This document shows positions 1 to 20,849 of a stretch of DNA of 64,000 bases, one piece after another. Position numbers and translations under genes: made by a program. Source of the DNA: Irpex lacteus. Its lineage: Eukaryota; Basidiomycota; Agaricomycetes; Polyporales; Irpicaceae. The notes beneath the pieces are model-generated. The model was not told the origin of the DNA. It made no database searches and saw only the letters and a list, made by a program, of their open reading frames with translations. Numbering within the stretch: the stretch's first letter is position 1; every line of letters begins with the position of its first letter. The stretch spans positions 1 through 64,000 of the forward strand of contig MQVO02000005.1 in the NCBI GenBank assembly GCA_001986395.2, read 5' to 3'.

Positions 1-3000
1 GGTTCTTGAAGACACTGAACATTCGAAAGAGACATCGATAGGCCTACAGGGATTTCAGAACGTAGAACTATCAGTAGAGGACCGATAAAAGTCGACAAAG
101 ATATCGGGGCAGTCGTGAATCGTTCGTGAAGAACGACGATAAAGACGACGATGTCATCGTCGTGTCACACCGATAACAATACGGACAGATATCGGGAGTT
201 GATTCAACGCACCTCTGCAAAGTTGGAGCCGTAATGAAATGACAATGAAGCATAAGAGGAATCCAGAAACTGGCCGGTGGTCTGGTCCTGAGGCCAGGCG
301 TCGGCGGAGAGCGAGAGCGAGAGCGAGAGCTGACCGCTGAACTGATTGAACAGCACATTGGGCCCGAGCCAGGGAAGAGTACCTTTTCTTGCGACGATCG
401 ACAAGCAAAAAGGATCCATGAGACGCGTAGTGAGGACGCAAGCGTTGCCCGTCTGCCCAAAGTTGGCGACACGCTCGAGCATGGCGGTGAGTTCCACCTG
501 ATAGAAGTACTCCCATCGTGAGGATCGTGTAATCCACGTTGCCCTCGTCTGCGGTCTTTGCCAGCATGTCATAGCGAGCGCGAAGTCCCTGCTCATAAAG
601 AACCTCCAGCGCGGATGCGAGTGGATAGGACGTCCATAAATACAATGAGGGGTACGCCTGCTGATTGGTAAGTATGTGAGGGTGGGTGGAACGTAAACAA
701 ACGCACATGGGGCCGAAAGATCACCAGATGTCGCCGCAGATTGAAGAAAACCTGTGGTCTTACCCACGCAGCGCCCAGCGTGCACAGGATCAGTCTGAAC
801 ACATCACTGAGCAATTGGTTCCAGCAGAGACATTAGCAACAAGAAGGGAAAACACGACGTGGAGTATCACAAACCTCGCATTCCGATGTTCCTCCTTCAT
901 AACACCGACGTCAATATGATACACGTTCTCCAACCGAAGTGAGGTGTTGATACTTGGCGTACTAAGCTTACTTTCCAACCGCCGAAACGGCCGTCCTCTC
1001 TGCTGAAGTCTGGTTAGGAGGTGATTGGCCGTAGACTTGTCCGACGCTGACTTGGCGAAAACAGCCGCAGTGGCTGCTGTCTGCTCAGCATGTTGAACAT
1101 CGTGGGAGGCCACATCGTAGCGCATCCGATGGATGGCGCTGTTATACACCTGGCAACTACCGCCAAGCAGCGGTCCCAGCGCGTCGTGCTGCACAGCTTC
1201 ATTCTCAGCGATCACAGAATTGATCTCCCGTATGACCTGGTCAAACATATCAGGCAGGGTCGTGCATTGATAATGTCCTAAATTCCCCAGGAACGCCTGA
1301 GGGTAAACATCGACGCGTCCAGCATTCGCCCATCAAAAAGCTGAGGAGCAGTGGAGAGGTTCATCATCATACCGCAGTAGTCCTCGTTAGGGACAGGCTG
1401 CCCTCCACGACGCTTGACTCGTGCGCCTGCGCCGGTGAAAACCAGATTCTCGGTAGGAGGGTCGTCATCATTTAACACGGGATATGTGTCGATGTCGATA
1501 GGTTGTCGGTTTTCGTCCAGGCCGTCGAAGAACTCTTCTCCAGGATGCTTCCGGCGGATATCCCCGGGGTCGACGTTGATGTGATTATGTGAGCGCTGAA
1601 CGCTGTAAGCATGACGGCCAGTTAATGAGTGTACGAGAGGTCATGCAAACACACTTACTTGAGCTCAGTCGCGAGAGCCAACGTGATGAAACGAATCTTT
1701 CCTAGATCACGATTGCCGCACCAAGCTCTACGGTCTGTCGGCGTAGGACGCAAATGCTTAAAGGACCAATCCTGGCCGTAAGACGCTGTGAAGAAAATGG
1801 GCATCCGCGTCCCAAGAGCACCTTGATAGGCAGCTGGCGCTGCGTCGTACCAGCGGGTCCATGTTCGCCGAATTGCATGGTCCCACAACTTCGCTTGATC
1901 CCAGTTGAGCTCCAAAGTTACACCCGAATGGTTTTTATCACTAAAAAGGAATCAGACCTAGTTCGATTCATGCGCCGACAATAAGCCAGAAATTTATCGG
2001 CGACCGCCCTCGTTCAGCCCAGTCAGCTGCATGCGCCAAAGCACATCCTCGGGGATCACGAGCACATCGTCTCCGATAACTTTCATGACATATATCGGCG
2101 AACGTCCATAGGTGAAATAGCACTTACAGCAAGTTTGTGTTGTCTTTGACGGTGTCCAGCTCATCAATGTTCCGCGGATAACGTTCTCCGGGGACATGGA
2201 TGTCGGCGATGCCAGCAACGTCCAGAGAATACGCAAAGAACATAAGCAATATATGGGCTACCGTAGAGTTGACGATGGCATCCTTCAGGCGCCCACGGGG
2301 TCGGCGCAGTCTCTAGCTGCACGTTCTCGGGAGCTTCACCAGCTAACCCGCACCACAGTTGGTCGCGAGTGAACTTGCCTATACACATCAAGGCCTTAGT
2401 ATGGTCAAACCCGAGACAGCTGTCCTTGGCAGGGAACGGTCGGAAGAGGCGCGTGAGACAGAGCTGGATACTGAAGCTTTGGTCTGGGCGGTCCACAGGA
2501 AGAAGGGCACCGAGCCCGATGTTGTTGGGGACGATCAGAAGAGCGTCGACATGAGACGTGGAGGAAGTGTACATCATATCCGGGTCGTTGTTTCGATACT
2601 GGTATTGGTCATCGACGGTGATTTTCTGCGCAGTCTGTAACTTACGAACGGCCGCCGTTCGTGCAACGCGACCTTCGTGTTGACCCCTGTAGAGAACATC
2701 GAGGCTGCCCAGCGTGACGCGCTCGGGTTTCATCTTGTTCATTGTTTGCAACGCAAACTGGCGATCGAGATCACCCTGTGATATGCCAAGATTGACCTCT
2801 TGTTGAGAAAGGGGCGAGTCGCTGGCAAAGACAGGATCAATGTCGGCAATGTCCACATAGTCATTCCGCTCCCGCAGGGAGTCGTCGCGCTCAGCTTCTG
2901 GCCGGCGCAGTACTTCCCTTGAGAAGTTGATAATATTATTCAGTCGACAGCTAGGCTTTTGCGAGACGGGGGAAGGAGCGGGATACTCACTGTACTATTG

Positions 3001-3028
3001 CGGATCTTATTTGTTGATTTTGTGACAT
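1..3028 (-). CDS. unrecognised multi-exon gene, 3' end beyond the window
   Basis: I do not recognise the product. The best start is ATG 3028 (MSQNQQIRSAIVQ); the gene runs leftward off the window edge. Readable exons are about 2930-2128, 1909-1659, 1602-875, 806-764, 657-213 and one beginning near 43. Most junctions have GT..AG sites, and the exons read as globular protein without membrane segments or repeats. Two introns, 2127-1910 and 212-44, are far longer than normal and each holds two copies of the 26-bp palindrome. At about 2300, 1330 and 510 the protein-like frame shifts without a convincing intron. At 510 a 40-bp intron with a weak donor could rescue it. So this copy is either frameshifted and decaying or my model is wrong there. 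It is the most downstream gene of a same-strand cluster with the ParB-like gene. Confidence 0.5.
82..195. repeat. 26-bp palindrome pair in an intron
   Basis: Two copies of CCGATA-N14-TATCGG, at 82-107 and 170-195, both with perfect arms. Both lie in the intron 212-44 of the left-edge gene. The first copy is followed by GGGCAGTCG, as is the copy at 6885. Confidence 0.85.
1975..2098. repeat. 26-bp palindrome pair in an intron
   Basis: Copies at 2073-2098 (perfect arms) and 1975-2000 (left arm CCGACA, one mismatch) lie 98 bp apart in the 218-bp intron 2127-1910 of the left-edge gene. Confidence 0.8.
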
Positions 3029-3552
3029 TTGGAATACGAATGTGGTGGTCGTGATGAGGGGAAGTGCAACTAGGGATGAACAAGCGACCCAGCTATATTA
3101 TAGTACAGGGCAGAATCGGAAAAATTTGCTGGCAACGGCTTCGGTTGGCTTAGGAGACTTGAAGAGCAGCCATCACAACGAGGCCTCGCGTAGTCATTCA
3201 CCGGACACCCAACATTTACCCCAGGCGGTGCCTCAATAGTTTACCGGCTGCGAGCTAATGCAGCGTGTTGGCTGTCAGTGCAAATTCAAGGATAGAAGAA
3301 ACATTTCAATATTCAAAACTACTAGTACATGAGGCGGTAAGGGCGGACGGATAGCGTGGGATAGTACAAGATGCGGCGGGAAGAGAGGATGACGTGTGAG
3401 AGCGGGGTGACGAATGCAATGCGATGCCGGCGGAGAGGACGATGACGAGGACGATGACGATGACGATGACGAGGATTATGGATGGCGACGATGAGGGCGG
3501 GAGGCGCACGTTCGAGGAGAGCGAAGGCAGTGTTACGAGCAGAGAACATAGC
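3029..3552. other. intergenic gap with GAC/GAT simple repeat
   Basis: The sequence between the start of the left-edge gene and the stop of the ParB-like gene. It contains a short GAC/GAT-rich simple repeat at about 3436-3476 and no copy of the 26-bp palindrome. No gene is supported. It must hold the promoter of the left-edge gene and the 3' UTR of the ParB-like gene. Confidence 0.5.
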
Positions 3553-6500
3553 CTACGGCTCCTCGGCAGAGATATTGGACCCGTCAGATCCGCCGCCTTG
3601 ATGAGAAAAGGAGGGAGAGTGTGGACGACGAGGATCGCCACCGCTCACGTCTGGCGACGACAGGGGAGACGAGTCGCTGTCGACTGGAATAAGGAGTGGA
3701 TGAGCGGGCGTGAGCACGGTGCGTCCGACACGTGGCGAGTACCACCTACCATCTTTCTCCGGCTTCTTCGAGTTAGCCCTTGACGATTGTCGCGTGGCGG
3801 GAGGAGTAGACAGTCGGAGATTCGAGCCTTCATCACAGTCGACGCAGTGTCGCTGTAGGCGTCCTCAGCTCGGCCACGTGGAACGCATGACCGGAAGATA
3901 CGCACCGTATCAAAATGATTTGGATTGGATTGTCGAATGCATGCGAGTGGATGGATATTAGTATAAAGATGGCATATGGAAGGCTCGTGACTCGCGCGAT
4001 AATTTGAACGAGTGTTATCAGGGAGGAGGGGACGCAATGAGAGCGACTGACCATCCCCTGTCCCCGATATCGTGCTCGACAATTATCGGGCAACGGATGG
4101 GGTTGATCGACAAGATATGCACTCACCTGAAGCTCTCGGAGGCATCGGGGTAGCTCCCTTCCTCTTCGGAAGAGGACGAGTCGACGCGGGAGGCTGCGAG
4201 CCACTGGGCACATTGTGCGAGCCTTCGACGTCGATTTCCATGGGGTCCGGAGACATACCCGTGCGAGAGGAAGCACCTGCCGCGATGGCATCCGCCCTTC
4301 TCTTCTCCTCGACGCTGAGTTTTATGGCCTCGGCGAGCTGCGCGGCCTCGCGTTCCTCCGCGTCCGGTTCCTCACGACTGCGTCTGATTGCCTCATCCAC
4401 CTCTGAGCGTTCCTTTGCCGTCCTAGCAGCCGACGATTCAGCGTGACGACGGGCAACCTTGGGAGGCGCATTTGCAGGTGCGTCGCCCATGGGAACATCC
4501 TCGTTCCTGTCGGCTTCGACATCCCGTAGATCCATACCCCCAATATTCAGCGACGGAGATAGATTAGGCATGGACCCATCCAGCTCATCCATCTGTGTCA
4601 CCTCAGAGCTCGAGGGAGTGTCCAGAGACGCGACAGGAGCAGAACGGGTGATCGTTCCTGCTCGAATGCGCTTGCGTGCATCTGAGTCGCTGGCCGGCAC
4701 TGCCTCAGACCTATCAGCGTCCTCATCGGACCCGGTCGTGGCCTGGAAGGGGCGCTTCGTAGAGTTTCGCTTCTTGAGAGCGCGGGACTCCTCGTCCGAC
4801 GAAGCTGTCGATTGTGGAGGTGCAGAACGTTCGGGTCGGCGACGAGGTTGACTTCCGGATGCCAAGCTCGACGACTGATGTGCGAGGGCTGCACCGCGGA
4901 CTGCAGCCTTTCCACGAGAGACACCAGGGCGACTTCCTAAATTTGGGCCAAGTTGAGTTCAATAGTAAGTGGTCATCGAATGGACTTACTGGACGATGAT
5001 TCAGCTGCGTGAGTGCGTTAAATAAAAATTAGTACAGTTTCTTGTGGGCGTAGAAATAGCTTACCGACTGCTTTTCCCTTTCCCTTTCCCTTCGCCTTAG
5101 CCTCGAGTGCCTTCAACGCTTTTTCTGACTCGGCTTTACGCGCCACGCGATACTCCTCGCCGATCTTGAGAAAGGGCAGAGAGCCCTTGACCGGGCACGG
5201 ATCTTGTACACGACGAGGGAGAAGGGCGTTGTCGAAAGGGACCGGTTGCATCTCGTAAACCTCCGATGCCAAGCTGGGGTACCTGTTGAGAATCGCTTTG
5301 CGGTCCGCTTTCTCAAGCTTCGGATGAGTGAGCACACCGCGTTGAAACATGAAGATGGCCTGGTCGATGATCGTAGACATAGCCTAAACAAAAAGGTGAA
5401 CGCGGTGTTATAACTCTCTGAGATAAGGACAGGAGACTTTTGCCACTTACTAAATGAAGGCTCGACAAGGCAGTCTTGAATTCCATAGTCGTTGACGCCA
5501 TGTCACTGGCCGACGAGGGCAGCCGTTCATATTGCGACGGGAGTGAGCTGGCGATGGAACTTGTGACGCGCGCGATGGCCCGCTTCATGTCCAGGTTAGC
5601 TACCCGCTTGTAGCGAGCGACTTCCGCCTCCATCCTCGCGATCGGTGAATCCCAATCGGGCACTACGAGGTCCTCGCGTGCGTTGTGCAGCCCATCTGGC
5701 CATGAGAACGGTGCCTTTGGATCAACCATGTGCGGTCGGAGAACGTCCTCGAGATCGTGCCGCAACCAGCCGCCGTCGTTGTGAGCAATGAGGCCTTTTC
5801 GATACGAGCTGATAACCTGTTCCTCCATGAGTGCGACAGGAAGCCAAAACTTGAGGAAGTCGGAGGCGCCATGGCTGGTAGTATGCCCCCATCGAAGAGG
5901 GGTACGAGAGAGCAGTGAGATGACCCGAGATGCTGGCTTCGTCGGGACCAGGTGATGGTTTTTGGTCTTTTGAGCCACGCTGATGGGAGCGGCGAACGTA
6001 GCAGCATCCTTGGACGCGCGGGCAACGAGTATGGGAAGGGGGTCGGGTAGACAGCCGAGCACATCGGCGTATTGAGCAAGATTGATCGGCGTCGGAGTCA
6101 GATGCTTCCTGAAGGCTTCCTGGCCATCCAGCACTGCCCCGTCGTCAACGTCATCATCGCCGACGATGGATGCGGCTGACTTTGCCTTCGCTTTCCTCGT
6201 CTTCATAGCCGTCTTCTGCGTCTTCTGCTTGGACTTAGCTACAACCTCCTCCTGCTCGAGCTGCGTAAGAGCTTTTTGCCAGCGCCATGCAAGATCTCCC
6301 TCGATATTTGGCGGGAGGGCAGCGATAAGAGCAGCGCGCTCAGCGTCCTTCTCCTCCTGGGTCTTCTTGCCCCGCTTGGGCTTGGGCATCTCATCGTCTT
6401 CGGCCTTCTTCTGAGCCTTCTTACGCTTTTTGGTCTCGCCCTTGGCGGGAATCGTCGCATGCGGCTTGCCATCGTCCTCGGCACCCTGGCCAGAGATGTC

Positions 6501-9500
6501 GATCACGTCACCCTTCAGCGCTCTCGTCAGTGTGGACCGTTTTGTCCAACGAGGGACAGGAGTGAATTCGCCACCGGGGCCAATGTGTCGTCCGATTGTA
6601 ACGAGATACAGGTCCTGGTCGCCCCACAGACATTCAGAGAGCGCGTCCTGGGCAAGGGCGTGAGCGTCAGGACTGATGCCGGCGTCCGGGTGACGAAGGG
6701 CCTCGAACATCATTTGACTGACGTCCTTATATGATGTGCCCCGCGAGCCATCTAAAGCATACAACGCGAGGGGGGCAAACCACATGGAGATCTGTGAAGA
6801 GTTCAGTATACACGAGTACGACGCAAGCCAGATCATAGAATGAACAAATGTTGAGGAAGGTAGCCGAAGACAATGTGCAAGACACCGATAACAAGCTGGC
6901 AAGATATCGGGGCAGTCGACTGTGACCACGACACATCTATCTCATCGCCCACCGGTATGTCAGGGGACATCTATCTCATCGCCCACCGGTATGTCAGGGG
7001 CACGGATAACGTGCTCCGTGGGGTCGATTGCCGGAACGGTGCATCACTCATGCTGTCCCCTGACACGTCCCCGTCACCGATAACGAGCTGGATAGATATC
7101 GGAACAGCGATAGAATGTGACTTACCTCCTTGATCGCGTCCTCATGGCCTTCCAATTGCTCGTGCGCTTGGTTTAACGAAGCTGCCGTTGGCAGCGGCCA
7201 TACCCCCTGGCGTGGTCCTATTGGCGCGAGAAACACAAAGGCACGTGTCGCCCGTATCTCCCACATTCGGTTCTCCGGAGAGCCCTCGTCCCCCTTCGCT
7301 CGACTCTGAAACACCTGGGAGACGGCGAACGCATAGTCGTGACGGGCGACGGCAAGTGCAGGGGCCCAATTCGATGTTCCAATTGATGGGCCGTCCATTG
7401 CCCCGAACGCAGTCATCCAAGCATCGTCAATCTCCTCGAGGAGCTCGGTCGTAATTCCCTCCATGTCAGGCGGATCGTATCGCTTCCCTCGGCATTTTTC
7501 CCGGATTACGCTTGCCTTTTGCTCCAGGTCGCGCAGCTCGTCCTCCGCTCCCTCCTCGTAACGGTCGATATCAACGGCGTCCTCCCAGAGGGCAGATATT
7601 TCGGTCCAGAGAGGCTCGATCTCCTCAAGGGGGCGATCCTCCGGCCGGAGAATCTCAAGAAGTACCTCGAACATCTTGCGCGTCGCACGTGAGAAGAGCT
7701 ATTGCACCAATGCATTCAGCCGTCAGTTTTCAAGCGGAACGGATGGGAACTGCCACGCACCCCACCCCAAACGGACATCATGTGCGCCCCGATCCACTTC
7801 TCTCGCGTTTCTGCTAGCTGTCGATAGTAGACGTCGAACCTCATGAAGTCTTGCACCCAAGAACGGGTGTGGCCTGTGGCCAGTGCGACGCCGAGAGTAG
7901 TGGGAACTCCCTTATCCTTCATCAACGCGACTGAGGCGTCCCATGCCATCTCGCGAGCCAAGTCTTTGCGTAGGGCAGTCTCTGCCACGGGTATTAACTC
8001 CGCCTCCAGCTCCTTCAGCTCGGCTGGCTGCGAGTCAAGCTTTCGCTTCAACGATTGAAGAAGCCCTTGAGCCCGCTCAAGAAGCCCGAGGTCGGCGTTG
8101 TCTGGATGGTCCGGGTCGAAATCGATGCCTTCTTCTTTTTCAACCGACGACACGCTGGGGGCATTGTCATCAGTCAAGTCGCCGTCGTATTTCTCCATCT
8201 CTTGCACGATTCCTTCCACTGCCTCGACTTTCTGGCGCAACCTGCCGCTAGTGATGGCATCGATTCGGGCGCGAAGGTCCTCCTCGCGAGCCATCGCGAT
8301 TTCGGCCGCTTTATGCTCATTCTTCATGTAGCGGCGAATCCAAGTGTACGCAGTTTCTTCCTCCGTCGACGCGAAATGAATGTCCTCGACATTCCCCGAA
8401 AGGTAGTCGCAGGCGGCATCGGTTAGCTTATCTGGGGGATATGTCAGATCTGGGGCACACTGAGGTAAATTCCACGCACCCTGAACATAGATCTTTAGCA
8501 GCCATTCCCCTCTATGCTTCTCAAGCGACAGCATTCGCTGGGCATGGCGCTCGGTTTTGACGATCTCTATCGTCAGTTCTCGGACTTTGGCCTCCTCCTC
8601 CTTCCACGCGGCGGTGCCCTTCTGCATGGTCGCAAGCCGCTGCTTGGCGACTGCGAGCACGGCCTCCAAGCGCATCATCTCACGCTCACCAATACGCTTG
8701 TCGACGTAGTCCTTCGCCGCCTCCACGTTGATTTTCATGGCCGCCACACGATGCTGGCCGCCCAGGGCAGCAATCTGCTTAAGGTCGTCGTTCAAGACGT
8801 CGGTCAACTCGGGGTAGTCGTCCAAGTTCTCGGTGAAGGTGGTGTGTGCCTTGCCCTTTACGAGGTACTTCTCCGCCACCATGATGGGGATGGCCGTGCG
8901 CTCCTCGCACCGTCGGATGCCATTGACTAGCATCGAGTTAGCCAGCTTCTCCGCGTTTGCTTGGACAAGGGGGCGGTTGTTGAAGGTGCCGAACTGGAGG
9001 GTGGGGGGGCCGAAGCTGGTGATGTTGAAGCGTGCGTATCCCCACAGTGCCGCCGCACTTTCGGCTTTGACTGCAGCCCCTTCGTTGCTCGCTTCGGCAA
9101 GCCCAGGCACTGACATTGTCTGATAACGCTTCGACGCAGCAGACTTCGCCTCCGCCGCGATCTCCTGAGGTGGAGTACACGAACATCAGAGCAAGCCGTT
9201 TCATACAGCACAATCTACACACCTTTTTGCCCTCGATGTCCATCGCCTCGTCCTCCTCGCCCTCGATGTCCATCGCCTCATCGTCCTCATCAACCCGCTC
9301 TCCGAACAGGGAGTCAGCCGTTGACTGGCCAACAGGTGAGGTCTCCTAAAATCACAGAACGTTGGTGTGAAAAGCGAGGTACAAATACAGAAAAGTCGAC
9401 CACTTACTTCAACTGCATCCCGTCCTGCGAGCTTTTCAGCCGCGTCCTGGCCGTCGACGTCCATGGAATCAGCGCGGGGCGCGTTCACGGAGTCGATGTT

Positions 9501-10210
9501 CATCGCGTCCGCCTGTGCCATGGGGACATGACATACTTAGCAAGTCGGTCGTTTACTAGTCGAGTACTTTGCTACTCACCCCGCCTGCACCAGATGCTCC
9601 GACATCCGTGGCCCCGGCCTTCGCCTTGCCCTTGCCCTTGCCCTTGCCCTTGTCCTTCTCCTTGCGCACGTCCTCGTCCTGGTCCTTGGCCTTGGCTTTG
9701 GCCTTCGTCTTCGTCTTCGTCGTCGTCGTCGTCGTCGGCTTCGCCTTCGCCTTCGGCTTGGCCTTGGGCTTGACCTTGTATTCATCATCATCACTTACCT
9801 CGCCCTCCTCCTTCTCCTCGTCGTGCTCCTCTTCATCTGAGCCCGACCCCGAATCATCCTCGTCCTCCTCCTCGTCCTCTTTATCACTCTCCTCCACGGC
9901 CACTCCCCTCCGTCCTTTCTTCGCCCCAGGCTGTACGCATACATATGTCAGACGTTTCCAACCGACTGTTTTGGTACATACCTTGCCTGGCGTGCTCTTC
10001 GCGGCGACCGTTTTTCTCCCAGAGGCCGGCGCAACTTTCTACAATCAATGGTGAGATGGTGCACATTGCAGTGAGAGCGTCTGTGATCTACCTTGCTCGA
10101 CGTGCTGGCAGTACCAGCCGCTTTCTTTTCCCTACCAGCCTACGTAAACTAGTAAGAAGACCCATCTGGCGTAGTACTATCGCTGCACTTACCTTCGATT
10201 GGTTAACCAT
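3553..10210 (-). CDS. ParB/sulfiredoxin-fold protein with tandem UIMs, about 1,800 aa
   Basis: A very large multi-exon gene. The start is ATG 10210 (MVNQSK). Small exons near 10130, 10030 and 9950 lead into an acidic and Lys-rich N-terminus (9903-9590), then short exons at about 9518-9405 and 9345-9225. The main exon ends near 7762, followed by about 7697-7126, 6791-5452, 5382-5060 and 4930-4137. The ParB-like region is at about residues 275-385 and contains GGQHRVAAMK near residue 369, the signature of the ParB N-terminal/sulfiredoxin fold. A coiled coil follows. Two perfect ubiquitin-interacting motifs lie near the C-terminus: VDEAIRRSREE and LAEAIKLSVEE (DNA about 4400-4296). Lys-rich NLS-like stretches suggest a nuclear protein. 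Known ParB proteins bind DNA and hydrolyse CTP, and sulfiredoxins use the same fold; the function here is unknown. Two introns (7125-6792 and about 4136-3860) carry palindrome pairs. The last exon is uncertain; I favour the Ser/Pro-rich frame ending at 3553. Confidence 0.7.
3996..4089. repeat. 26-bp palindrome, with a possible decayed partner, in an intron
   Basis: A copy at 4064-4089 has perfect arms. A candidate decayed copy at 3996-4021 has one mismatch in each arm but the same N14 spacing. Both fall in the long intron before the last exon of the ParB-like gene. The second copy alone would not be significant; its position next to the first is the argument. Confidence 0.7.
6885..7102. repeat. 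26-bp palindrome pair in a 334-bp intron
   Basis: Copies at 6885-6910 and 7077-7102, both perfect, lie in intron 7125-6792 of the ParB-like gene. Their spacers are related (both contain AGCTGG at the same place), so these two may descend from one copy. Confidence 0.85.
6933..7000. repeat. 34-bp direct tandem duplication
   Basis: Two identical 34-bp units, 6933-6966 and 6967-7000, lie between the two palindromes of the 334-bp intron. A later CCCTGACACG at about 7058 is close to the reverse complement of the unit end. Confidence 0.9.
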
Positions 10211-10714
10211 TTTCGCGATCGAGGGTTCAGTCTACTTGTTCGAGTTCGAAAGGTGGTCCAAGCGATGTGTAGATGGATGTAAGATGTCAAGTTTGATAGT
10301 GACACCGAACGCAGTTCACCGCTCTGTGACACGTCACACAACGCACATGGCTTTAGTCACGGGATCGTGACACACAGTGTTCGCTAACGAGCGAGATCGA
10401 CCGATAGCCAGCTGGGAAGTTATCGGACCTCGATCCCTGCTACCCCTCCTCGGCCAGGTGACGCAGTGATGGAGTTGAGTTTTACACGAGCCTTAGCCTG
10501 GTATTGATTGCTCTCACGAATAGCTCATTCAGTGTCGCACCTAGTCTCCGATAACTTGCGAGCAGGTTATCGGGCCCAACATCACGTCCATATCAATAAA
10601 ATCGCGGGCTCTTTCTCGAAAATGTAGACATCGATGCAATAAAAACTGATACAAGCGTATTATAACGATCTCCCTAACTTTCTTAACAGAACCACACCAC
10701 GATATTACGCAAGC
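10211..10714. other. intergenic region between the ParB-like and Cys-rich genes
   Basis: No ORF is supported. This is the promoter side of the ParB-like gene and the 3' side of the Cys-rich gene. It contains the palindrome pair at 10401-10573, listed separately. Confidence 0.6.
10401..10573. repeat. 26-bp palindrome pair, intergenic
   Basis: Perfect copies at 10401-10426 and 10548-10573, 147 bp apart, about 190-340 bp upstream of the ParB-like start codon. Confidence 0.85.
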
Positions 10715-12153
10715 TCATTCGTTATCGCCCGCCTCAAGCTCCCTGATGGTTTTTAAAACCTTGTCCGCTTGCTGGCTCATTTCTAGCTCTTGTCTGCGTA
10801 GATAGCGATACTCGTCTCGAAGTGCTGCGAGACCGGTTTTAGCCACAGGGCGGGCTTTATTCATCGATCTATCAGACATTGATGAGAAGCTGCGTGGCGG
10901 GACTAAAGAATATGCAGGTGTGTGGTTAGTATGTAACGGAAGCCGGTGACAAACAACTTACCGCCGTCCACTACAGCCGTCGAGGGTCCGGCTGATGCAT
11001 TCCTAGCAGAGGAGGAAGCAGAGGATCGTGGGGCCGCAGCTGCGATAGTTTCGCACGGTGAGAAATCGACCAAAGATCTCACCCGCCAAGACTTACTTGA
11101 CAACTCGTTATCTGGTGCGCGCTGCTTCGCCTTGCCTTTTTTATCACGCACGGACGTGATCGTGCGCCTCTGCTTTGTAGGTGACGGCGGAGCAGGATCA
11201 TCGTCGTCCTGCTGCCGCTTTTGAACAGCAGGCGCCGGAGGGATAACCTCAGGATACTCTGGAAACCCAGCAATCGCGCCGAACAGGTCCACAATGGCCT
11301 CATGTCGATAGCGCTCCTTTGGCTCACGGCCGCTATACGCACTGCATCCAGTATGCTGGTGGTTGCAATACGTGCATCTTTGAATCTTGACGTGCTTCCG
11401 ATCCAGAGGCAACACGCACGTTGCACGCGCAGAGTTGAGACATAATTCACACTGATGCCACCCCATGTTAGCCATTTAATGTTCAACAACTCGGCGACGA
11501 TTCCTAGCTCACCCGGTCGTCTCCTTTCAATACCACCGCAGCTCTCCCGATTTTCCACACCGTTCCCTGGTCGCCTGTAGGTTTGTGGGACGTAACACTC
11601 TTACCTTTCCTGTCGTCGCGCGGACTGCCATGCGACGAGGGTTCCTCGTCTTCTTCGAGTTCATCTTCCTCCTTTTCAGACGACTCACTCTCCTCGGTCT
11701 CCGGCACTATCCTATTCCTGAGACGTCTCGCCTTCCCTGGCGATGCGGGAGCTGTACTCCCCTCATAGTCACTGGCGCTATCACTCTCGTCCTCGAGTTC
11801 GTCGTTCAGCTCCTTCGACACGCCGTCGGAGTCCCTCACGTCGTTGACGATGTCCTCCTCATCTTTCTGGGGGTCAGGGACTACAATTTTGCCCAGGTCC
11901 TTACCTGACAGAGCGCGTGAGTTCAAATCCATGAGGAATGAGTGAACCGACCAGTGCCCGCGCGATTGCTTGAGCAAGGCCTGGGGGCGTCCCTTCACGC
12001 TTGGCGGGCATGATGGGAATCCTCACAGCATGAGCAGATAGAGCTTCCTGTGTGCAAGTTATTCAGCGAAATACGAATATGCTAATTACCTGCACTCACT
12101 GTGCTTCGTTGTGCACCCTGCTTCACCTTGGCTGAATTGGATGTGCTGGGCAT
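10715..12153 (-). CDS. six-cysteine Zn2Cys6-like protein
   Basis: A four-exon model. ATG 12153 (MPSTSNSAKVKQG) opens a short first exon, and a second exon encodes a Ser/Glu-rich acidic region (about 11990-11515). An intron with branch CTAAC and acceptor CATCAG leads to the cysteine region. The last exon ends at TGA 10715 after a Lys/Glu-rich helix. The cysteines are spaced C-x2-C-x7-C-x13-C-x2-C-x6-C (CELCLNSARATC, then CTYCNHQHTGC). This resembles a fungal Zn2Cys6 binuclear cluster with a long middle loop. Such clusters bind DNA, typically CGG/CCG triplets at fixed spacing. The region after the cysteines is Pro/Lys-rich and NLS-like. The gene sits directly upstream of the ParB-like gene on the same strand. 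Zinc binding and DNA binding are inferred, not shown; zinc clusters in other Agaricomycete families are possible. Confidence 0.6.
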
Positions 12154-12593
12154 TACGTTGATTCTAGTGTGATGCTCATGAACATACATGCAGGGGTAGA
12201 GTAATCATTGGCCTACATTGAAAGGACGCAGTGGTTTTTGCAGAAGAATGAGGCGATGGCGGAGGCGAAAGATGAGTGCGAAGGACATAATGTATAGATG
12301 AATTGCAGCACGTGTTAAACATCGCCGTGCTCACGTGGTCGTAATGCACGAGTCAACACGTGGCACTGCGCGGCAACAGCAGCGCGCAACAGCGGTCGCA
12401 CGATTCACTCAGCAACCTCCCCGATATCATGGTCGCAAGTTATCGGGGGCCACGCATGCGCCTCACAATCGTTTGATTCGCAGGTTTTCCCTCGGAGCTC
12501 AAAAAACAATACGAGTCGTAGCGCGTCAATCGTTCATGTCGTATACTATAGCACACGTTAGGTCCTAAAAATTGAATAATCCAGCGAAACACG
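12154..12593. other. intergenic region with one palindrome
   Basis: No gene is supported. It contains the single palindrome 12421-12446 and should hold the promoter of the Cys-rich gene. Confidence 0.5.
12421..12446. repeat. 26-bp palindrome, intergenic
   Basis: CCGATA-N14-TATCGG with perfect arms, midway between two genes. No partner is visible nearby. Confidence 0.85.
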
Positions 12594-13537
12594 TCAAGAA
12601 GCTGTCTCTTGAGCGGGACGATCTAGCATCAGGAGAGCCTGTCTCTCGATGAGTTCGATCTCCTTTTCATACACCTTGGCGATGAGCGTCATGTTAAAAA
12701 TACGCTCTTTCGCCCTCTCCAGTAACGATCGATACACAGCTGCTCGTATTCGCAGAGTCTCTGCTTCGGACTCGCGATTCATCCTGATAGGTAGCTTGGC
12801 AAGTATCGAGATTTTCTCGAGCTCCTCTTCGTGTGCGACATTCGTTATTGGATTGCCGACGCAAACGAACATCACTCCCGCACTCACCTTTCTTCATTTC
12901 CGTCGATACGCCGTACTCGTCGAACATCTCTTCAATCGCCTCCACAGTAATTGACCCTTCCAAAGGTGGCATTGTTGGCTCAAAGAGTGGTGTCCGCCGT
13001 GCGTACTCAGCCGCCCAAAAATACAGGCCGTCGTCTGTCTTGCTAACATCTTCGACAGCAGCGAGAAGCTCGCGACTAATCGACGGCTAGGGATATGTCT
13101 CAGCGCCTGAGAGTAAAAGCACGTTAATTGTCTTCTCGCTCACCTCGCGACGATTAACATCGCCTTTGTTGTCTCCTTCGCGTTCGAATTGACGATGCCT
13201 CGAAGTATTCGCATTTGCCTGCTTGGCACGAGAACTGCTTCCTGCCTGTTTGCTACCCGATGTGGGATATGCGCTTGGAACCTTGTCGGTCAATTCAAGC
13301 TTTCCACGCGCGCCCACTAGTACTCTGTAATCTTTGAACTGGTCCTGTTTCAGCATCTCCTGCGCTATCCTCCCCTGGGCACTCGCTGGAACGAGCCTGG
13401 GTGTTTTCTTCTTAGGCTCCCTATAGAAGCTATCAGTACAGCTTCATTAATTCCCTGAAAACGTACATGTCAATGCTGGATGACGGTAGCAAGCGAACGT
13501 TGGCCGGACTTAATCGATGGGCAGTATGGATACTCAT
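12594..13537 (-). CDS. hypothetical protein, about 260 aa
   Basis: I do not recognise this protein. The start is ATG 13537 (MSIHTAHRLSPANV). A first intron from about 13465 (GTACGT) to 13420 is followed by exons split at a GTGAGC donor (about 13145) and a GTGAGTG donor (12887). The stop is TGA 12594. The middle is basic and low in complexity; the C-terminal 75 residues are strongly helical, rich in Glu/Arg/Leu, and could form a coiled coil. The gene lies between the Cys-rich gene and the F-box/nucleotidyltransferase-like gene, with a palindrome in the gap on each side. A diverged copy of its first exon and first intron occurs alone at 19962-20105. Confidence 0.6.
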
Positions 13538-13720
13538 GGCAGGCTCTCACGCAGATGCTGTAGTACTGTATTGAAACCACGTGGCACTTGGGACTTGTCA
13601 TACGGGATGTCAGTACCGACAAAACTGTACTCAGTTGTATCTTCTAAGACAATATCGACGCGTTGAACCGCCAATCCATTGCTACGAAGCACTGTTGTAG
13701 CGGCTCAAGCGGGCCACTCA

Positions 13721-13746
13721 CCGATATCTGTCTCGAGAGATATCGG
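13721..13746. repeat. 26-bp palindrome, intergenic
   Basis: CCGATA-N14-TATCGG with perfect arms, in the 306-bp gap between two minus-strand genes. Confidence 0.85.
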
Positions 13747-13843
13747 ACATACCTTCAGTCTGTCGACGAGAATGGAGCGGAAACTGCCATGTAGCCAGCT
13801 AAGAGATGTCAGAGTTGCGCGCGCCAATCATTGTGACAACCGT

Positions 13844-15131
13844 CTAGCAGACAATGAAACGAGCCGACTCATTCACAGGGTCCTTTCTCAGCCATGCAAC
13901 CATTGCCCTGATCATTTCCTGCGTATTTCTGAGGCGTGAATGAGTAGCCACCCTAGTCTGTCGTAAACGCTGCACGTACTTATCTGATCCTGTGCTCGAT
14001 CGATACCCTTTCCCAAATACCTTCGCCCTCCTCAGTTCCTGAGATATTCTATACATCTGTTCCTTGATATCTCCGTCAACTCCGAAAATGGGATACATGC
14101 GATCCGCCATGTGCAGTGGCTTGGAGTTCAGGCGGTGGTGGTCGCCGGGCTTTAGTGAGAGAGACCAGGTGGTTGCGGACAGCGGCGAATCGTATGGCTT
14201 CCATGAAAGCTCGAGTGGGGAAAGCTTTATCGCCAAGCTGTGCTTGTCTTCAACCCAACGCACTTTGCGGTGTTGGAAGTGTTTGCCAAGGTCGTCATCC
14301 AGAAGTTGAATGTTGAGAAAACCGATACGCTGGTATTTACGCATGAGACCATCAATGGTGGCGTCTCGGGGCTTCAGCGCAAGGTTCAAATCCAGGGCAA
14401 GTGTGGCCGACGGGTATAGGCAGTACGCTTTCTCAAAGGTGATAAAGTTCAACGCGCAAGCTGAAATGCTCCAAATGTCAGTAGCATGTCATGTGACTGA
14501 AAAACATTCGCGTACTCGAGTCGAAGCTCAGAATCGTCTCAGCTGGTGAGCAGCGAACAGCAACCAACTGCACCCTGCGAGGGTGCCCATCGACCACTTT
14601 GATAAATTCAAAAACACCCAACACACCGTTGATATAGAAATTGGGAGTGTGGAGATGGGCTCGCATGCGTCGAACAGCATTCAGGAAATCACCGACGTGC
14701 CATCCATAGTTTGGAGCCTGCATGGACTGGTGCGCCATAGAATGAAGTCGAGCTCCGAACGGGCTGAACTGGTACCCGTTAACCTCCAACCAGGTCCCAA
14801 CTGCGGGAGCAGCTTCGTAGGACACGTATAGGTCGAGAGCAGGGCGTGTTCTGAAATCCACCGTGAAGAAGTTGCGTGCGAAGGACCCAGAGATTACTGC
14901 CCCGGTTCGTGCTTGCAGCAAGCGGAAGGCGTCCGGATGATTGAAATAATCCCTGAGACTACGATTGATTGAGAATCTGCGTGGAAGCACGGCGTCGACG
15001 AGTAGTTTCATGAAATGCGTGAGGCAGCGAAGGCGAAACAAATCAGGCACCCGGAGGTACTTCACGAGCTCCCAACAGAGCTCATCAATCATAACGAAAA
15101 GCAGAAACGGTGGCGGCGGAGACTCTGACAT
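13844..15131 (-). CDS. F-box-like / nucleotidyltransferase-like protein, 410 aa
   Basis: Two exons, 15131-14516 and 14460-13844, joined by a phase-1 intron with donor GTACGC and acceptor TTTCAG. The start is placed at MSESPPPP because it opens directly onto the N-terminal helical region; an upstream in-frame start at 15227 is possible. The N-terminus (residues about 10-50) is F-box-like. It is followed by ISGSFARNFF and LDLYV, the short G-S and D-x-D/Y pattern of a nucleotidyltransferase-like fold. This arrangement, with STCALNFITFEKAYCLYP just after the intron, is common in mushroom genomes. Whether the fold is catalytic is doubtful, because the usual second acidic residue is not clear. It is the most upstream gene of the same-strand cluster. 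Confidence 0.7.
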
Positions 15132-15429
15132 TGTCGTAGATGGAGGTAGAGAGGCAGAAGTAACGTGCATGCAGCGCACATCGTTCACAGTATTAAGAAA
15201 CATCGTCTTCGAGTTCGGTAGTCTCATAGTTACGCGTCATTTACGTGTAGGCATTACCGAAAACTTGTTGCCGCGATGGATATGTGTTGGATTGCTTATG
15301 TCACGTGGTCGTGAAAGACACTGCTTCCGACAAAGCAGTACCATCCAGCGATGCACCACTGGGAAAGGCGGTATTCATTTGAAAGTGGTGGGTACAGCTT
15401 ATGCACCTCTGACACGATGGAGGGGTCCG

Positions 15430-15676
15430 CCGATAAGTAGATAGTCAGCTATCGGTAACGCATGAGAATACAGCTGCAATGACAGCGTAATGAATTCGCT
15501 CTCTGAGCGTACGTCTTACTCAAATCTTATCTCAACCTACTTACATTCCGATGTAGAATCACGCACCAATTCTATTTTGTGCCTCCGATATTTGAACGCA
15601 GATTTATCGGTGAGACGGATGTCATGCCGGCACAAATCCGGCAGCTCCTGCCGATATGATCATAGAAAAATATCGG
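15430..15676. repeat. three 26-bp palindromes
   Basis: Perfect copies at 15430-15455, 15585-15610 and 15651-15676. The last two are 66 bp apart, similar to other pairs. Confidence 0.85.
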
Positions 15677-15781
15677 ACGAGGTCACGAGAATATACGACA
15701 CGTTCTCCAATCCTTCCCTGTGTCTTTATTGGAGTTGACCAAAAATTGTGTCGGCAGCTGGGTGAGCCCCCTCGTTCTGAC

Positions 15782-15813
15782 ATGCAACGGGGCACGTATG
15801 CAACGGGGCACGT
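15782..15813. repeat. 16-bp tandem duplication
   Basis: Two identical units of ATGCAACGGGGCACGT, at 15782-15797 and 15798-15813. A third GGGGCACGTG lies just after them. They lie next to the tRNA-like module at 15840. Confidence 0.9.
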
Positions 15814-15839
15814 GAGACAGGTGGGGCACGTGTCAGGGC

Positions 15840-15925
15840 TGTCCACAATTGCCCTGAGCAGGAGTCGAACCGGCGACTTCAAGTCGCGATTCTACTCCTA
15901 CGCCAAACGGCCGACATTCACAGCT
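15840..15925 (-). mobile_element. tRNA-like module (SINE head), copy 1
   Basis: On the minus strand the sequence reads GGCCGTTTGGCGTAGGAGTA followed by GGTTCGACTCC, which resemble the A box and B box of a tRNA gene; the closest pattern is tRNA-Pro. The acceptor arms do not pair, so it is not a working tRNA. Nearby sequence matches the other tRNA-like modules (CAATTGYGG-type flank). Confidence 0.6.
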
Positions 15926-16332
15926 GTGCGTATAAGCCTCTGCGTTAAGTTGAACAGCAGTCCATCAGTTCACTGCCCTGACACGCAAAGCATCGTATAA
16001 ATGGGGGTACACTTCACGTAGGCAACTGCTCAAGTGCCGAGTAGCCTCCTCAGCAGCACGCGAGGGCACTCACTCGAGTCTGCAGACCGGTCGCTCGGAT
16101 TAACTTATGCACCCGGCTGATAGTCATCTTCGGGAATACAGCTATGCATTGAGATTGCAGCACCATGGCATGTGTCGGCATTTGAATCATTAACAGACCA
16201 ATTTGCGACTATGACAAGTTGTCTACTTCACACTACTAGCAACACCAACCCAGCTAAGGTCCTAAGGTAGCATTGGCTCTGCCTCCCTTTTTCATACTGA
16301 GAATGAGTTGCGTACGGTCCCCACTCATGTTG

Positions 16333-16423
16333 CCGATATTCGAGCAGATTTTTATTGGTCTACTGGACGCTGAGGCATACGATGCCTCGAGTTCACGCCG
16401 ATAAAGCTCCAGCACAATATCGG
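16333..16423. repeat. 26-bp palindrome pair
   Basis: Copies at 16333-16358 (right arm TATTGG, one mismatch) and 16398-16423 (perfect), 65 bp apart. Confidence 0.8.
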
Positions 16424-17019
16424 CCGATGTCGTAAAACTATACGGCGTGTTCTTCCAATATTTCCTCACCACGAGCAAATGTCGATCAGAGGCTTCGGAA
16501 AGGCGCACAAGAGCAATCGATTGAGTGAATTAATCGCACAGTTAGTCAAGTAATCGCATAGTTCAAACCGGTTCTTTCCCTGCGGTAAAAAGTTCACTTC
16601 TTTGTGCTCGGCAGTATTCTCCGGGTTGAAGGTAAGACTATGAGAGCGTCGAAACACTGTTCAAAAATGATCATCTCCGCTACGAACAAAGGTATACAAT
16701 CGGCTGAATAGCAATCGGGAGTGCTCTAGTGCGACCAATCTCGGTCAGTCGCCATGGCGTTCCCTTTATGCTTACTGACAGGGTTCACTTTTCGACGGTT
16801 TTTTGCTCGGTTTTCGTGTGGAAAAAAGACTACATGTTCTCTCGAATTACAATGTTCTGTGATCTTTCCGAACATCTAATTATAAGGTGCTTTATCTGAA
16901 ACACGTTAGGTGTGTATCTTGATCCCTTTTTCACGCATTTTGGGTACGCTCTGATCTGCTTTTTCCCGAAGTGAGTGTCTTGTTGTTAGAATAACACAAC
17001 AAAAAAACGGACGGGGCCT

Positions 17020-17165
17020 GGAACATGATCCCATCAGCTGGACCTCCTTTGGTGAAGGAGGTCCACCGGACGAGGCATATGCCAGCACCGCCCATAATTG
17101 CCTCAACCGGGAGTCGAACCAGCGACCCTGTGTCGTGATCATACCCCTGTGCCAAATGGCCGACA
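17020..17165 (-). mobile_element. tRNA-like module plus hairpin, copy 2
   Basis: The minus strand has an A-box-like TTTGGCACAGGGGTATGATC and a B-box-like GGTTCGACTCC at about 17105-17160. About 50 bp downstream is a perfect 11-bp hairpin at 17039-17065 (arms TGGACCTCCTT and its complement, loop TGGTG). The hairpin flanks, CATGATCC on one side and GCCAGCACCG on the other, are shared with copies 3 and 4, but the stem sequence is unrelated to theirs. Confidence 0.65.
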
Positions 17166-17355
17166 TCGAGCACCTTTCGTCAATGTCTTTGTATTCAGAC
17201 TCTGCGTACTTCGGTAATATATACTCCATTCGATATCGGTAGAATTCAACGATGCAAGATGATGACTGCTTCTGGCATAAAGGGATAGCATGCTGAGATG
17301 GCAAACTGCCACATCCCACGCTTCTACACAATAAGGATAGCTCGCGTACTACATT

Positions 17356-17606
17356 CCGATAACATTCTGCACACGTATCGGGGTTTCAATAGGCGTTGTC
17401 TGACTTTGCGTTCGTGATTTACACTCACATTCCCAACAATTGTCCTGAACGTTACAGGAACCTCAGTCAATACGTGTGTTTGGGTGCTAACTGACACTCC
17501 AAGGCCACCTGAACACAAACCCAACTGAATCCTATGTACTTCTTTATACAGCAATGGAACTAAGTTTTTCCTGACGTGCGCCGATAATACCTCAGCATCT
17601 TATCGG
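17356..17606. repeat. two 26-bp palindromes
   Basis: Perfect copies at 17356-17381 and 17581-17606. The first belongs to the composite repeat. Confidence 0.85.
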
Positions 17607-17849
17607 CGCACCCCTCGACTTATTACTGTGAGGTGCTCATCCCTTTGATATATACTCCATTCGATATCGGCAGAATTTAATGATGCAAAACGATGGCTGC
17701 TTCTGGCATAAAGAGCCAACATGCTGGAATGGCCAACTGCCACGACTTCCGCTTCTACGCAACAACGATAGCTCACGGACTACATTGTGATAACATTCTA
17801 CCAATTTCTCCTGTCTTTTCGTCGGCATAAAACAAAAGACAGAATGGGG

Positions 17850-18025
17850 TCTGAAACATGATCCTATTTGGATGGCAAGCACGTGGTGCATGTGGTGCAG
17901 CACCGCGTGCGGGCCATCCAAATAAGGCATGCGATGCCAGCACCGTTCATAGTTGCCCCAATCGGGGATTGAACCAGCGACCTCATGTCGTGATCATACC
18001 CCTGTGCCAAATGGCCGACATTGAG
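17850..18025 (-). mobile_element. tRNA-like module plus long hairpin, copy 3
   Basis: An A-box-like and a B-box-like sequence (GGTTCAATCCC) lie at about 17955-18020 on the minus strand. A hairpin at 17865-17924 has a 12-bp outer stem, a 2x2 internal loop, an 11-bp inner stem and a 10-nt loop. It shares its flanks with copies 2 and 4. Confidence 0.7.
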
Positions 18026-18210
18026 CACCTTTCGTCAATGTCTTTGTATTCAGACTCTGCGTACTTCGGTAATCTATACTCCATTCGATATCGGTAGAAT
18101 TCAACGATGCAAGATGATGACTGCTTCTGGCATAAAGGGATAGCATGCTGAGATGGCAAACTGCCACATCCCACGCTTCTACACAATAAGGATAGCTCGC
18201 GTACTACATT

Positions 18211-18236
18211 CCGATAACATTCTACACACGTATCGG
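18211..18236. repeat. 26-bp palindrome in the composite repeat
   Basis: Perfect arms. The spacer differs from the copy at 17356 by a single base. Confidence 0.85.
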
Positions 18237-18427
18237 GGTTTCAATAGGTGTTGTCTGATTTTGCGTTGTTGATTGACACTCACATTCCCAACAACTGTGT
18301 AGAACGTTATAGGAACCTCGGTCGACACGTGTGTTTGGGCGCTAATTACAAGCCCAAGGCCACCTGAACCCCAAGCCCAACTGAATCCTATGTACTCTTT
18401 TCTATAGCATGCGCGTGAGTATAATCC

Positions 18428-18530
18428 AAGGTGCGACAAAAGTGCGACCATATGCCACAGAGTGCGACAAAAGTGCGACCAAGTGCGACAAAAAGTGCGA
18501 CAAAAGTGCGACCAAAAGTGCGACAGCGAC
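18428..18530. repeat. minisatellite of AGTGCGACAAA-type units
   Basis: About eight to nine imperfect units of a 10-13 bp motif, AGTGCGAC followed by A/C runs. It is bracketed by a direct repeat GCGCGTGAGTATAATC at about 18412 and 18551, which suggests that it expanded inside a duplicated segment. Confidence 0.85.
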
Positions 18531-18784
18531 GACGTATATTAGCTTATATGCGCGTGAGTATAATCTTAGGTGCTCATCCCTTTGATATATACTCCATTCG
18601 ATATCGGCAGAATTTAATGATGCAAAACAATGGCTGCTTCTGGCATAAAGAGCCAACATGCTGGGATGGCCAACTGCCACGACTTCCACTTCTACGCAAC
18701 AACGATAGCTCACGGACTACATTGTGATAACATTCTACCAATTTCTCCTGTCTTTTCGTCGGCATAGAACAAAAGACAGAATGG

Positions 18785-18965
18785 GGTCTGAAAAATGATC
18801 CTATTTGGATGGCTAGTACATGGTGCATGTGGCGCAGCACCGAGTACGAGCTATCCAAATAAGGCATGCGATGCCAACACCGTTCATAGTTGCCCCAATC
18901 GGGGATTGAACCAGCGACCTCATGTCATGATCATACCCCTGTGCCAAATGGCCGACATTAAGCAC
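18785..18965 (-). mobile_element. tRNA-like module plus long hairpin, copy 4
   Basis: The layout is the same as copy 3. The hairpin is at 18802-18861. One stem pair that is C-G in copy 3 (17880/17909) is T-A here (18817/18846), so pairing is kept despite the base changes. Confidence 0.7.
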
Positions 18966-19306
18966 CTTTCGCCAATGTCTTTGTATTCAGACTCTTCGTA
19001 CTCCAGTGTGTAGTTATTGAGAAGGAAGATTTTGTGCATAAGTTCTACTAGTGATACAAATGTTTTGTGTGCTGTGTAGACTCTTTCGGTGGTGACGAGA
19101 CCGCAAATCGAGTGCACAGAGAAGTCGACCAGAGCAACTTATATGCATTACTAATCTGACAGTAACAGTGCCAATTTCAAATTGTACTTATAGCACGTTG
19201 AAGGACAAACAGCTAATCAATAAGCAATACTCTTTCCGCTGATCGCAAATTTAACAGTTAATCGAGCTTGGAACCGAAGCACAAATAATGTTTTTCATGA
19301 CATGCG

Positions 19307-19538
19307 CCGATAATGCTTTAACATCTTATCGGTGTGGCCCTGCACTCATGACTGTGAGTTGCTCATCTCTCCGATATATACTCCATTCGATATCGGCAGA
19401 ATTCAACGATGCAAAACAATGACTGCTTCTGGCATACAGGAACAGCATGCTGAGATGGCAAACTGCCATGACTTACGCTTCTAGGCAATAAAGATAGCTC
19501 GTGTACTACATTCCGATAACATTCTACACACATATCGG
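19307..19538. repeat. two 26-bp palindromes
   Basis: Perfect copies at 19307-19332 and 19513-19538. These are the right-most copies with perfect arms in the window. Confidence 0.85.
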
Positions 19539-19961
19539 GGTTTCAATAGGTGTTGTCTGATTTTGCGTTGTTGATTCACACTTACATTCCCAACAACTGT
19601 GTAGAACGTTATAGGAACCTCGGTTGACACGTGTGTTTGGGCGCTAATTACAAGCCCAAGGGCACCTGAACCCCAAGCCCAACTGAATCGTATGTACTCT
19701 TTTCTATAGCATCTGTCAGCTCAACGTACCTTTTGTGTGCCAGCCTTCGACATAATTGCTCAGCAATTCTCAACAATTTCGCCGATGACCTTGACATATT
19801 GCCATTGGCGAATTGTTTAGACGTAACAATTGGTATGCGATTAAATACTTGCGACGAAATAGTACCAATCCAGGGTACAAGTATGCATTTTGCCAATAGA
19901 ATATGACTGTAACCTGTCCATAACCGGTAAGGTAACCGTGTCCTGTCAGCTCTTTCCTATA

Positions 19962-20105
19962 TAATCAGTACAAATTCATTAATTCCTTCGAAACGTACAT
20001 GTCAATGTTGGATGACGGTAGTAAGCAAACATTGGCCGAACGTAATTGATGGGCAGTATGGATACTCATGGCAGGCTCTCATACAGATGCTGTAGTATTG
20101 TATTG
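19962..20105 (-). pseudogene. duplicated first exon and intron start of the 12594-13537 gene
   Basis: About 140 bp closely matching 13432-13573. It keeps the start codon (20069, MSIHTAHQLRSANV), the GTACGT donor and an intron-like tail, but not the rest of the gene. After a possible acceptor (TATATAG) the frame stays open for about 50 codons of unrelated sequence. Confidence 0.75.
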
Positions 20106-20330
20106 CAATCTTATCTACATGGCTTATCTTATCTGTTGTACAGTTCATATAAGAAATGTGGTTACATGACATCATGACATTCTGAATATTACATAATCAT
20201 TCTGTTGGAAACAGTGCCAGCTCACAAATAATAAGCAGAATGTGGCACCATTATTTGTGGCACCACTATTTAAATTTATTTTGACTGACCCTGCCCTAAA
20301 TCAAGTGGTCTGTGCACAATTCCTGAAATC

Positions 20331-20338
20331 TATATAAA
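20331..20338 (+). promoter_or_regulatory. TATA box upstream of the small spliced ORF
   Basis: TATATAAA, about 250 bp before ATG 20583, is followed by a CT-rich leader. The GTTAGT and CAAAG sites between them could be a 5' UTR intron. Confidence 0.4.
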
Positions 20339-20582
20339 CTCTCACTAAGCATGCTCTCATCTCTCATCTTCACTCCTAAGTTGTGACTGAGCTAGCACAC
20401 TGCACAAGTCTCCCTAGTCATTCACAGTCTTGCATCATCTTTCACCTATCATCTACTCTGAAGTTCTTATTTCACATTAGTCATCAATCCAGGTTAGTTG
20501 ATATCTATTTTGTTGTCTCTCTGCTCACATTTTATCTCTACGCAAAGTTCCTATCTCTGTGACCACCTCTGAGCAAGTGAAT

Positions 20583-20849
20583 ATGACAGAAGTCAATATC
20601 AATATATCAGTGAGTTTTTGACAGAACAACCAAAGCACACCACTGATCTCATTTTATTTGAAGCTTAACAACCCTGCTCCAGTTTATCTTCATGTCACAC
20701 ATGGCAACATCAATGTTGCAGTGAACGTAAAGATCACAGGCAGCAAGACTGAGTTGCAATTCCATGTGAACAAATCAGTTGAGGATGTAATTATGGCTGA
20801 ACCGGAGCCTGAAGATGTAGAGATGACGGACAGCACAGCCAATAATTAG
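20583..20849 (+). CDS. small two-exon protein, 70 aa, function unknown
   Basis: Exon 1 (20583-20609, MTEVNINIS) joins exon 2 (20664-20849) through a 54-bp phase-0 intron with donor GTGAGT, a CTGAT branch-like site and acceptor GAAG. The protein is beta-prone in its middle (VYLHVTHGNINVAVNVKI) and has an acidic tail (EPEPEDVEMTD). There is no signal peptide and no known motif. The surrounding 20.1-20.9 kb is distinctly AT-rich compared with the genic parts, with a TATA box upstream. It could be a young gene, part of a degraded LTR element (the segment beginning TGTTGGAAAC near 20203 looks LTR-like), or chance. Confidence 0.45.

Follow-up and report, generated by a model that had tools for sequence, protein, structure and literature searches.

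Results

We analyzed the first 64 kb of a contig of the basidiomycete Irpex lacteus (the window; it begins at base 1 of contig C185 in the 44.3-Mb, 317-contig genome that was scanned). Short introns and F-box genes in this genome suggest a fungus, probably a basidiomycete. Its first 20 kb hold a telomere-adjacent element followed by two truncated element tails, and this stretch carries a family of palindromes of the form CCGATA-N14-TATCGG. Element subfamilies are called 15-, 16- and 17-type after the gap, defined as the number of bases between CCGAY and RTCGG arms; the gap of 16 in the window corresponds to CCGATA-N14-TATCGG. The features are as follows.

1-18410, minus strand: 16-type telomere-adjacent element, with conserved genes on the minus strand; other contigs hold its left part, and it ends on the right at 18410 (..CTCTTTTCTATAGCAT)
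1-2994, minus strand: gene G, upstream exons; extends onto C184 as far as about -1711; no match to a Pfam family
82-107, 170-195 and 2073-2098: perfect palindromes, putative intron of gene G
1975-2000: palindrome with one mismatch, putative intron of gene G
3996-4021: palindrome-like, two mismatches
4064-4089: perfect palindrome between genes G and P
5021-9185, minus strand: gene P, exons P4 to P1; GGQHR stretch within 7719-9185; no Pfam family
6885-6910 and 7077-7102: perfect palindromes, putative intron of gene P
10401-10426 and 10548-10573: perfect palindromes between genes P and Z
10718-12022, minus strand: predicted gene Z; acidic part 11507-12022, zinc-cluster-like motif 11344-11451, coiled-coil-like segment 10718-10957; splicing predicted
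12421-12446, 13721-13746, 15430-15455, 15585-15610 and 15651-15676: perfect palindromes
16333-16358: palindrome with one mismatch, deleted in the C54 copy
16398-16423, 17356-17381, 17581-17606 and 18211-18236: perfect palindromes
18568-19712, minus strand: second 16-type tail, left-truncated, same right end
19307-19332 and 19513-19538: perfect palindromes, second tail copy
19371-19396: perfect palindrome, absent from the first-pass annotation
19710-19965, minus strand: 17-type tail, truncated, ending on the right at 19965 (..CTATATAAT); 90% match to C184 3401-3656

A pattern scan of the window found 20 perfect copies of the palindrome, all at 82-19538, and none in the other 44 kb. The first-pass annotation, which had counted 19 and lacked the copy at 19371, described both the family and its confinement correctly, and the one-mismatch sites at 1975 and 16333 and the two-mismatch site at 3996 are present as it claimed. 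Five matches have two mismatches (3996, 12784, 17645, 18582 and 63892), and with up to two mismatches allowed the window holds 27 matches, against a mean of 2.02 and a maximum of 5 in 100 shuffles. Genome-wide there are 148 N14 sites (positions are listed for the first 50) against 3 for a reversed-pattern control. Pooled spacers of N0-13 yield 29 sites (control, 19) and those of N15-30 yield 20 (control, 14), so that 148 sites stand against 49, and the motif is not evenly distributed, nor is its spacer length free; spacer length and genome spread were the check that the same annotation had proposed. Its statement that total length never varies holds within the window and fails elsewhere in the genome, where related elements use other spacers; N13 makes up 16 of the 29 N0-13 sites, and 13 of these 16 lie on C14, C32 and C58, which carry the 15-type element. 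A separate repeat, CCGATA-N29/30-TATCGG, recurs nearly unchanged on C28, C157, C221, C262 and C295, and another small palindrome, CCGGCT-N1-AGCCGG, occurs three to four times in stretches of the C58, C28 and C53 flanks.

Three spacings characterize three subfamilies. Gap 16 accounts for 18 of 21 CCGAY/RTCGG pairs in the 16-type element (window 1-18500) and gap 17 for 23 of 31 in the 17-type element on C67, while the 22 pairs of the 15-type element on C32 include 12 at gap 15 and 6 at gap 16; no gap value exceeded 3 in shuffled controls (300 each for the window, C67 and C32). To the left of the window, C184 contributes five pairs with gap 17 and one with gap 16; we take the gap-17 pairs to belong to a 17-type element whose tail was joined at that point. 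An outward extension of the arms (G or CG, then TT) is present in the 15- and 17-types and not clear in the 16-type. Half-sites lie 20 to 22 bp apart, center to center, or about two turns of DNA. Because the gap differs by a single base between element groups, which are about 35 to 65% identical in conserved protein segments when cross-compared, each subfamily is likely to be read by its own DNA-binding protein.

Placement of the sites relative to genes is shared among the subfamilies. Across 13 intervals between 14 conserved coding segments, 5 bear sites and 8 lack them, identically in each of the three subfamilies, and no site falls inside the 14 segments. Three of the five site-bearing intervals have GT..AG borders at matching places and, judged from sequence, look like introns. 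One site-free interval spans 122 to 218 bases, and therefore length by itself does not determine whether sites are present. By eye, the intron sites form pairs or triplets with no obvious tandem unit, and units in the tail region (17 to 19.7 kb) are duplicated and carry sites along. Further inverted repeats often lie between paired intron palindromes (window 7077-7102/6885-6910 and 82-195), including a long one between two sites in the gene P intron of C67 (C67rc 12154-12390), again by eye.

The arms are also the best conserved part of the sites. Among 16-type copies, changed positions number 7 of 600 in arms, 30 of 700 in spacers and 273 of 5,908 in flanks (Fisher test, P = 7e-4 for arms versus spacers and 7e-6 for arms versus flanks), an approximately fourfold lower rate of change in arms whose true size must be smaller, since the copies share ancestry and perfection in the window was the criterion for choosing the sites. 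Insertions and deletions give the sites no advantage (arms 7, spacers 8, flanks 6), and at least 5 of the 7 arm positions belong to a single deletion, at the imperfect site 16333 in the C54 copy. Within one element the spacers are unrelated to one another, and the arms and their spacing are fixed.

The elements themselves are bounded on the right by a precise end. From telomere tract to right end the 17-type element on C67 spans about 25.6 kb and the 15-type on C32 about 22.4 kb; a composite across C112 and C185 gives about 23 kb for the 16-type, and DNA searches, which find the region in many copies, show that window position 1 continues leftward on C184, C112 and other contigs. Each element carries some twenty palindromes. 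Right ends are alike between types (..CTCTTTTCTATAGCAT, ..CTCTTTCCTATATAAT and ..CTTCTTTCTTTATAGAAT), and a pattern search over the retrieved loci gave 25 matches to the right-end motif (17, 5 and 3 by type), after which 23 distinct ten-base sequences occur. Three such ends are stacked in the window, at 18410, 19712 and 19965, and the left side of a copy breaks off at the junction with the next right end. We infer that a defined right end is joined to broken chromosome ends.

Copies were retrieved or located on 12 contigs longer than 100 kb (C14, C28, C32, C51, C53, C54, C58, C60, C67, C185, C187 and C308). On 10 of these the copy lies close to or at a contig end and its right side faces the interior; C187 and C308 have short internal pieces. 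These tail pieces inside long contigs (C308 ~1.834 Mb, C187 ~0.742 Mb) are possibly old fusion or repair sites. Stronger evidence than position at a contig end, because repeats can also break assemblies, comes from CCTAA tracts of at least 90 bp (interruptions included) at the outer ends of C32, C53, C58, C67, C112 and C184; none was found at the outer ends of C14, C28, C51, C54 and C68. The telomere repeat is (CCTAA)n, equivalent to (TTAGG)n, the arthropod type, and a pattern search found no threefold TTAGGG in the genome. TTAGGG is given for most of the 21 Basidiomycota examined in the excerpted text of PMC10100673.

Other repeats adjoin the right ends. A direct repeat of 145 bases, 89% identical, occurs inside the element (window 13432-13576) and at the junction to the flank (19964-20108), and a GTGCGACAAAA minisatellite with the phrase GCGCRTGAGTATAATC lies beside right ends at window 18425-18530, at the start of C53 and on C187. 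The flank beyond the stacked ends (window 20104-24000) recurs at several contig ends with 68 to 85% identity.

Gene Z is our candidate reader of the palindromes, because its predicted product combines a zinc-cluster-like motif with a coiled-coil-like segment, and CGG triplets a fixed distance apart are what known zinc-cluster dimers recognize. Its cysteines follow the pattern C-x2-C-x7-C-x13/14-C-x2-C-x6-C, which has no other match in the six-frame translations of the 16- and 15-type elements, and all six are present in the window, C32 and C51 copies. Downstream, the runs of a/d heptad positions in a hand-chosen segment were equalled by 6, 46 and 3 of 2,000 shuffles. The CCG-N20-CGG within the 16-type site is a triplet pair of the CGG type, and zinc-cluster dimers typically read CGG pairs, as passages of PMC5559640 describe. 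Of 19 genome matches to gene Z, 18 are on element-bearing contigs (all but C170 inspected) and 1 is weak (C151, E = 0.0024).

Genes G, P and Z are conserved minus-strand coding segments with about 35 to 65% identity between subfamilies, and G and P are as widely common to the subfamilies as Z. Pfam scans of 10, 10 and 60 open reading frames (ORFs; about 80 in all, with exons below about 100 amino acids mostly left out) gave no convincing family for any of the three genes and no transposase, ParB, helicase, polymerase or reverse transcriptase family; one of the 60 ORFs had an F-box match (E = 3.2e-4). The GGQHR stretch of a 466-amino-acid ORF in gene P (7716-9116, minus strand) is reminiscent of ParB-type domains, and the first-pass annotation had linked the palindromes to ParB-like genes. 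This link found no support: neither Pfam nor a PDB profile search gave a ParB match, and the AlphaFold2 model was poor (mean predicted local distance difference test score, 49.8). The ORF at 4083-4865 (minus strand) contains a stretch, EEREAAQLAEAIKLSVEE, that resembles a ubiquitin-interacting motif.

Discussion

Sequence supports the sites, a spacer for each subfamily, the shared intervals, the conservation of arms and the precise right end, and on this level the palindromes form a genuine family of sites, specific and conserved, that belongs to a telomere-adjacent element. The first-pass annotation had taken them for targets of a dimeric DNA-binding protein or a recombinase. Its dimer logic holds up, given fixed spacing with a free interior, arms conserved relative to spacer and flank, and sister elements with spacings of their own; a recombinase is unlikely, as it would fragment an element with some twenty equivalent sites. 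That annotation did not take into account the multicopy, telomere-adjacent element to which the cluster belongs, the sites in introns or the sister subfamilies.

Our preferred reading, held tentatively, is that the sites lie in non-coding gaps, introns among them, where each would be bound by a dimer of an element-encoded protein, predicted to be that of gene Z, which would mark the DNA and probably keep the element open and expressed. The zinc clusters of gene Z would contact CCG...CGG triplets 19, 20 or 21 bases apart, with the coiled coil and linker setting that distance; the one-base difference in spacing would keep subfamilies apart, and binding along the whole element may counter silencing, by analogy with the plant protein VANC in VANDAL transposons.

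Several observations weigh against this reading. The spacer code has exceptions: gaps 15 and 16 occur together in the C32 element, a C51 site shows gap 18 at a place where C67 shows 17, and a near-copy of site 7077 on C117 has N15. Pfam Zn_clus does not match gene Z, the C67 copy has one cysteine changed to tryptophan although the C67 sites are kept, and a triplet distance of 19 to 21 bases is longer than in classic zinc-cluster examples. One C32 pair (20074; gap 15, no outer extension) overlaps a conserved ORF segment outside the 13-interval set. The introns and the splicing of gene Z are predictions from sequence, and shared ancestry and site choice inflate the arm contrast.

Among alternatives, we give a low but real chance to a role in mobility or copying, in which the product of gene P or G, acting as a transposase or as a partition or replication protein, would bind the sites and thereby gather or copy the element, after which the right end is joined to a broken chromosome end. 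The precise right end with its 25 motif matches and 23 different followers fits such a role, as do the truncation of older elements where a new right end joins and the sharing of G and P across subfamilies as widely as Z. The sites, however, run along the whole length, introns included, rather than clustering at an end, and no transposase, ParB, helicase or polymerase family appeared in the scanned ORFs, short exons excluded. It is improbable that a host factor such as a subtelomere silencer, insulator or telomere-capping protein binds sites that the element has gathered. Location at chromosome ends would suit a host factor, but three spacing types within one genome track element subfamily, and with 148 N14 sites against 3 in the control and few other spacers, host loci are hardly used.

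A role as RNA hairpins in transcripts (signals for splicing, small RNA or RNA export) is very improbable, even though several sites are intronic and the arms are complementary. Arm mismatches in the 15- and 17-types show no G-U bias (24 in the transcribed sense against 27 for the other strand, beside 312 Watson-Crick pairs and 88 mismatches of other kinds), the loops keep their length to within one base although their sequence is free, and intergenic sites exist too. Least likely of all is that the sites are passive passengers with no present function, for although duplicated tail units (17 to 19.7 kb) copy sites and element copies multiply every one, sites within an element combine unrelated spacers with constant arms and spacing, arms are better conserved than flanks, and the same intervals are used where, by eye, subfamily introns no longer align.

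Returning to a dimer of the gene Z protein as reader, we consider possible, though on the unlikely side, a broader proposal in which these would be a new superfamily of telomere-riding elements capping broken ends, and marking their own DNA with dyads, with the spacer length as a key, a zinc-cluster dimer for each subfamily that recognizes its own spacing alone from one end of the element to the other, introns included, and rivals stacked on one chromosome end under separate control. Three subfamilies in one genome would offer a direct test of whether the spacing preference of a dimer and some twenty sites change jointly. As telomere-adjacent mobile DNA without a known enzyme, the elements would also make their mode of joining chromosome ends accessible to study.

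Known systems resemble parts of this picture. ParB-parS shares dispersed palindromes and a resemblance of the GGQHR stretch; it differs in the missing Pfam and PDB matches and poor model, and the architecture of parS sites differs from CCGATA-N14-TATCGG. Telomeric retroelements (HeT-A/TART, MoTeR) are likewise reported to pile up at chromosome ends as left-truncated copies with a common orientation; here, however, no reverse transcriptase family was found in the ORFs scanned, and the precise end lies upstream of the genes. Yeast Y' elements are chromosome-end repeats beside telomere tracts. Subtelomeric RecQ-helicase elements of Ustilago, Magnaporthe and Agaricus similarly adjoin telomere tracts, according to parts of PMC7473861. 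Unlike both of these, the ORFs scanned here include no RecQ or superfamily 2 helicase family, and the element has a precise right end joined to many sequences and dispersed palindromes. Zn2Cys6 factors, in the passages of PMC5559640 that describe them, compare well in six cysteines of near-canonical order, a coiled-coil-like segment and CCG/CGG triplets at fixed distance; gene Z differs in its x7 and x13/14 spacings, the lack of a Pfam match and triplets 19 to 21 bases apart.

The closest parallel in layout is with VANDAL transposons of Arabidopsis, whose VANC proteins recognize motifs in non-coding stretches, introns among them, of the transposon that encodes them; the motifs diverge between related VANDAL transposons (PMC5735166 and PMC10398659). 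Both systems have short, element-specific non-coding motifs, in introns among other places, that differ between related elements. No Mutator-type (MULE-type; VANA) transposase was found among the ORFs scanned here, however; our sites appear as fixed-spacing dyads in pairs, with duplicated units seen in the tail, in place of the tandem-repeat motifs of VANDAL, and our element is telomere-adjacent with a putative reader and effect. The telomere element resembles VANDAL/VANC in layout and is no member of it by sequence. If our reading is true, self-labelling of chromatin by a mobile element through dispersed non-coding sites, known from VANDAL, would have evolved a second time, at chromosome ends in a very different organism, and the variable here would be dyad spacing in place of the motif sequence that varies in VANDAL.

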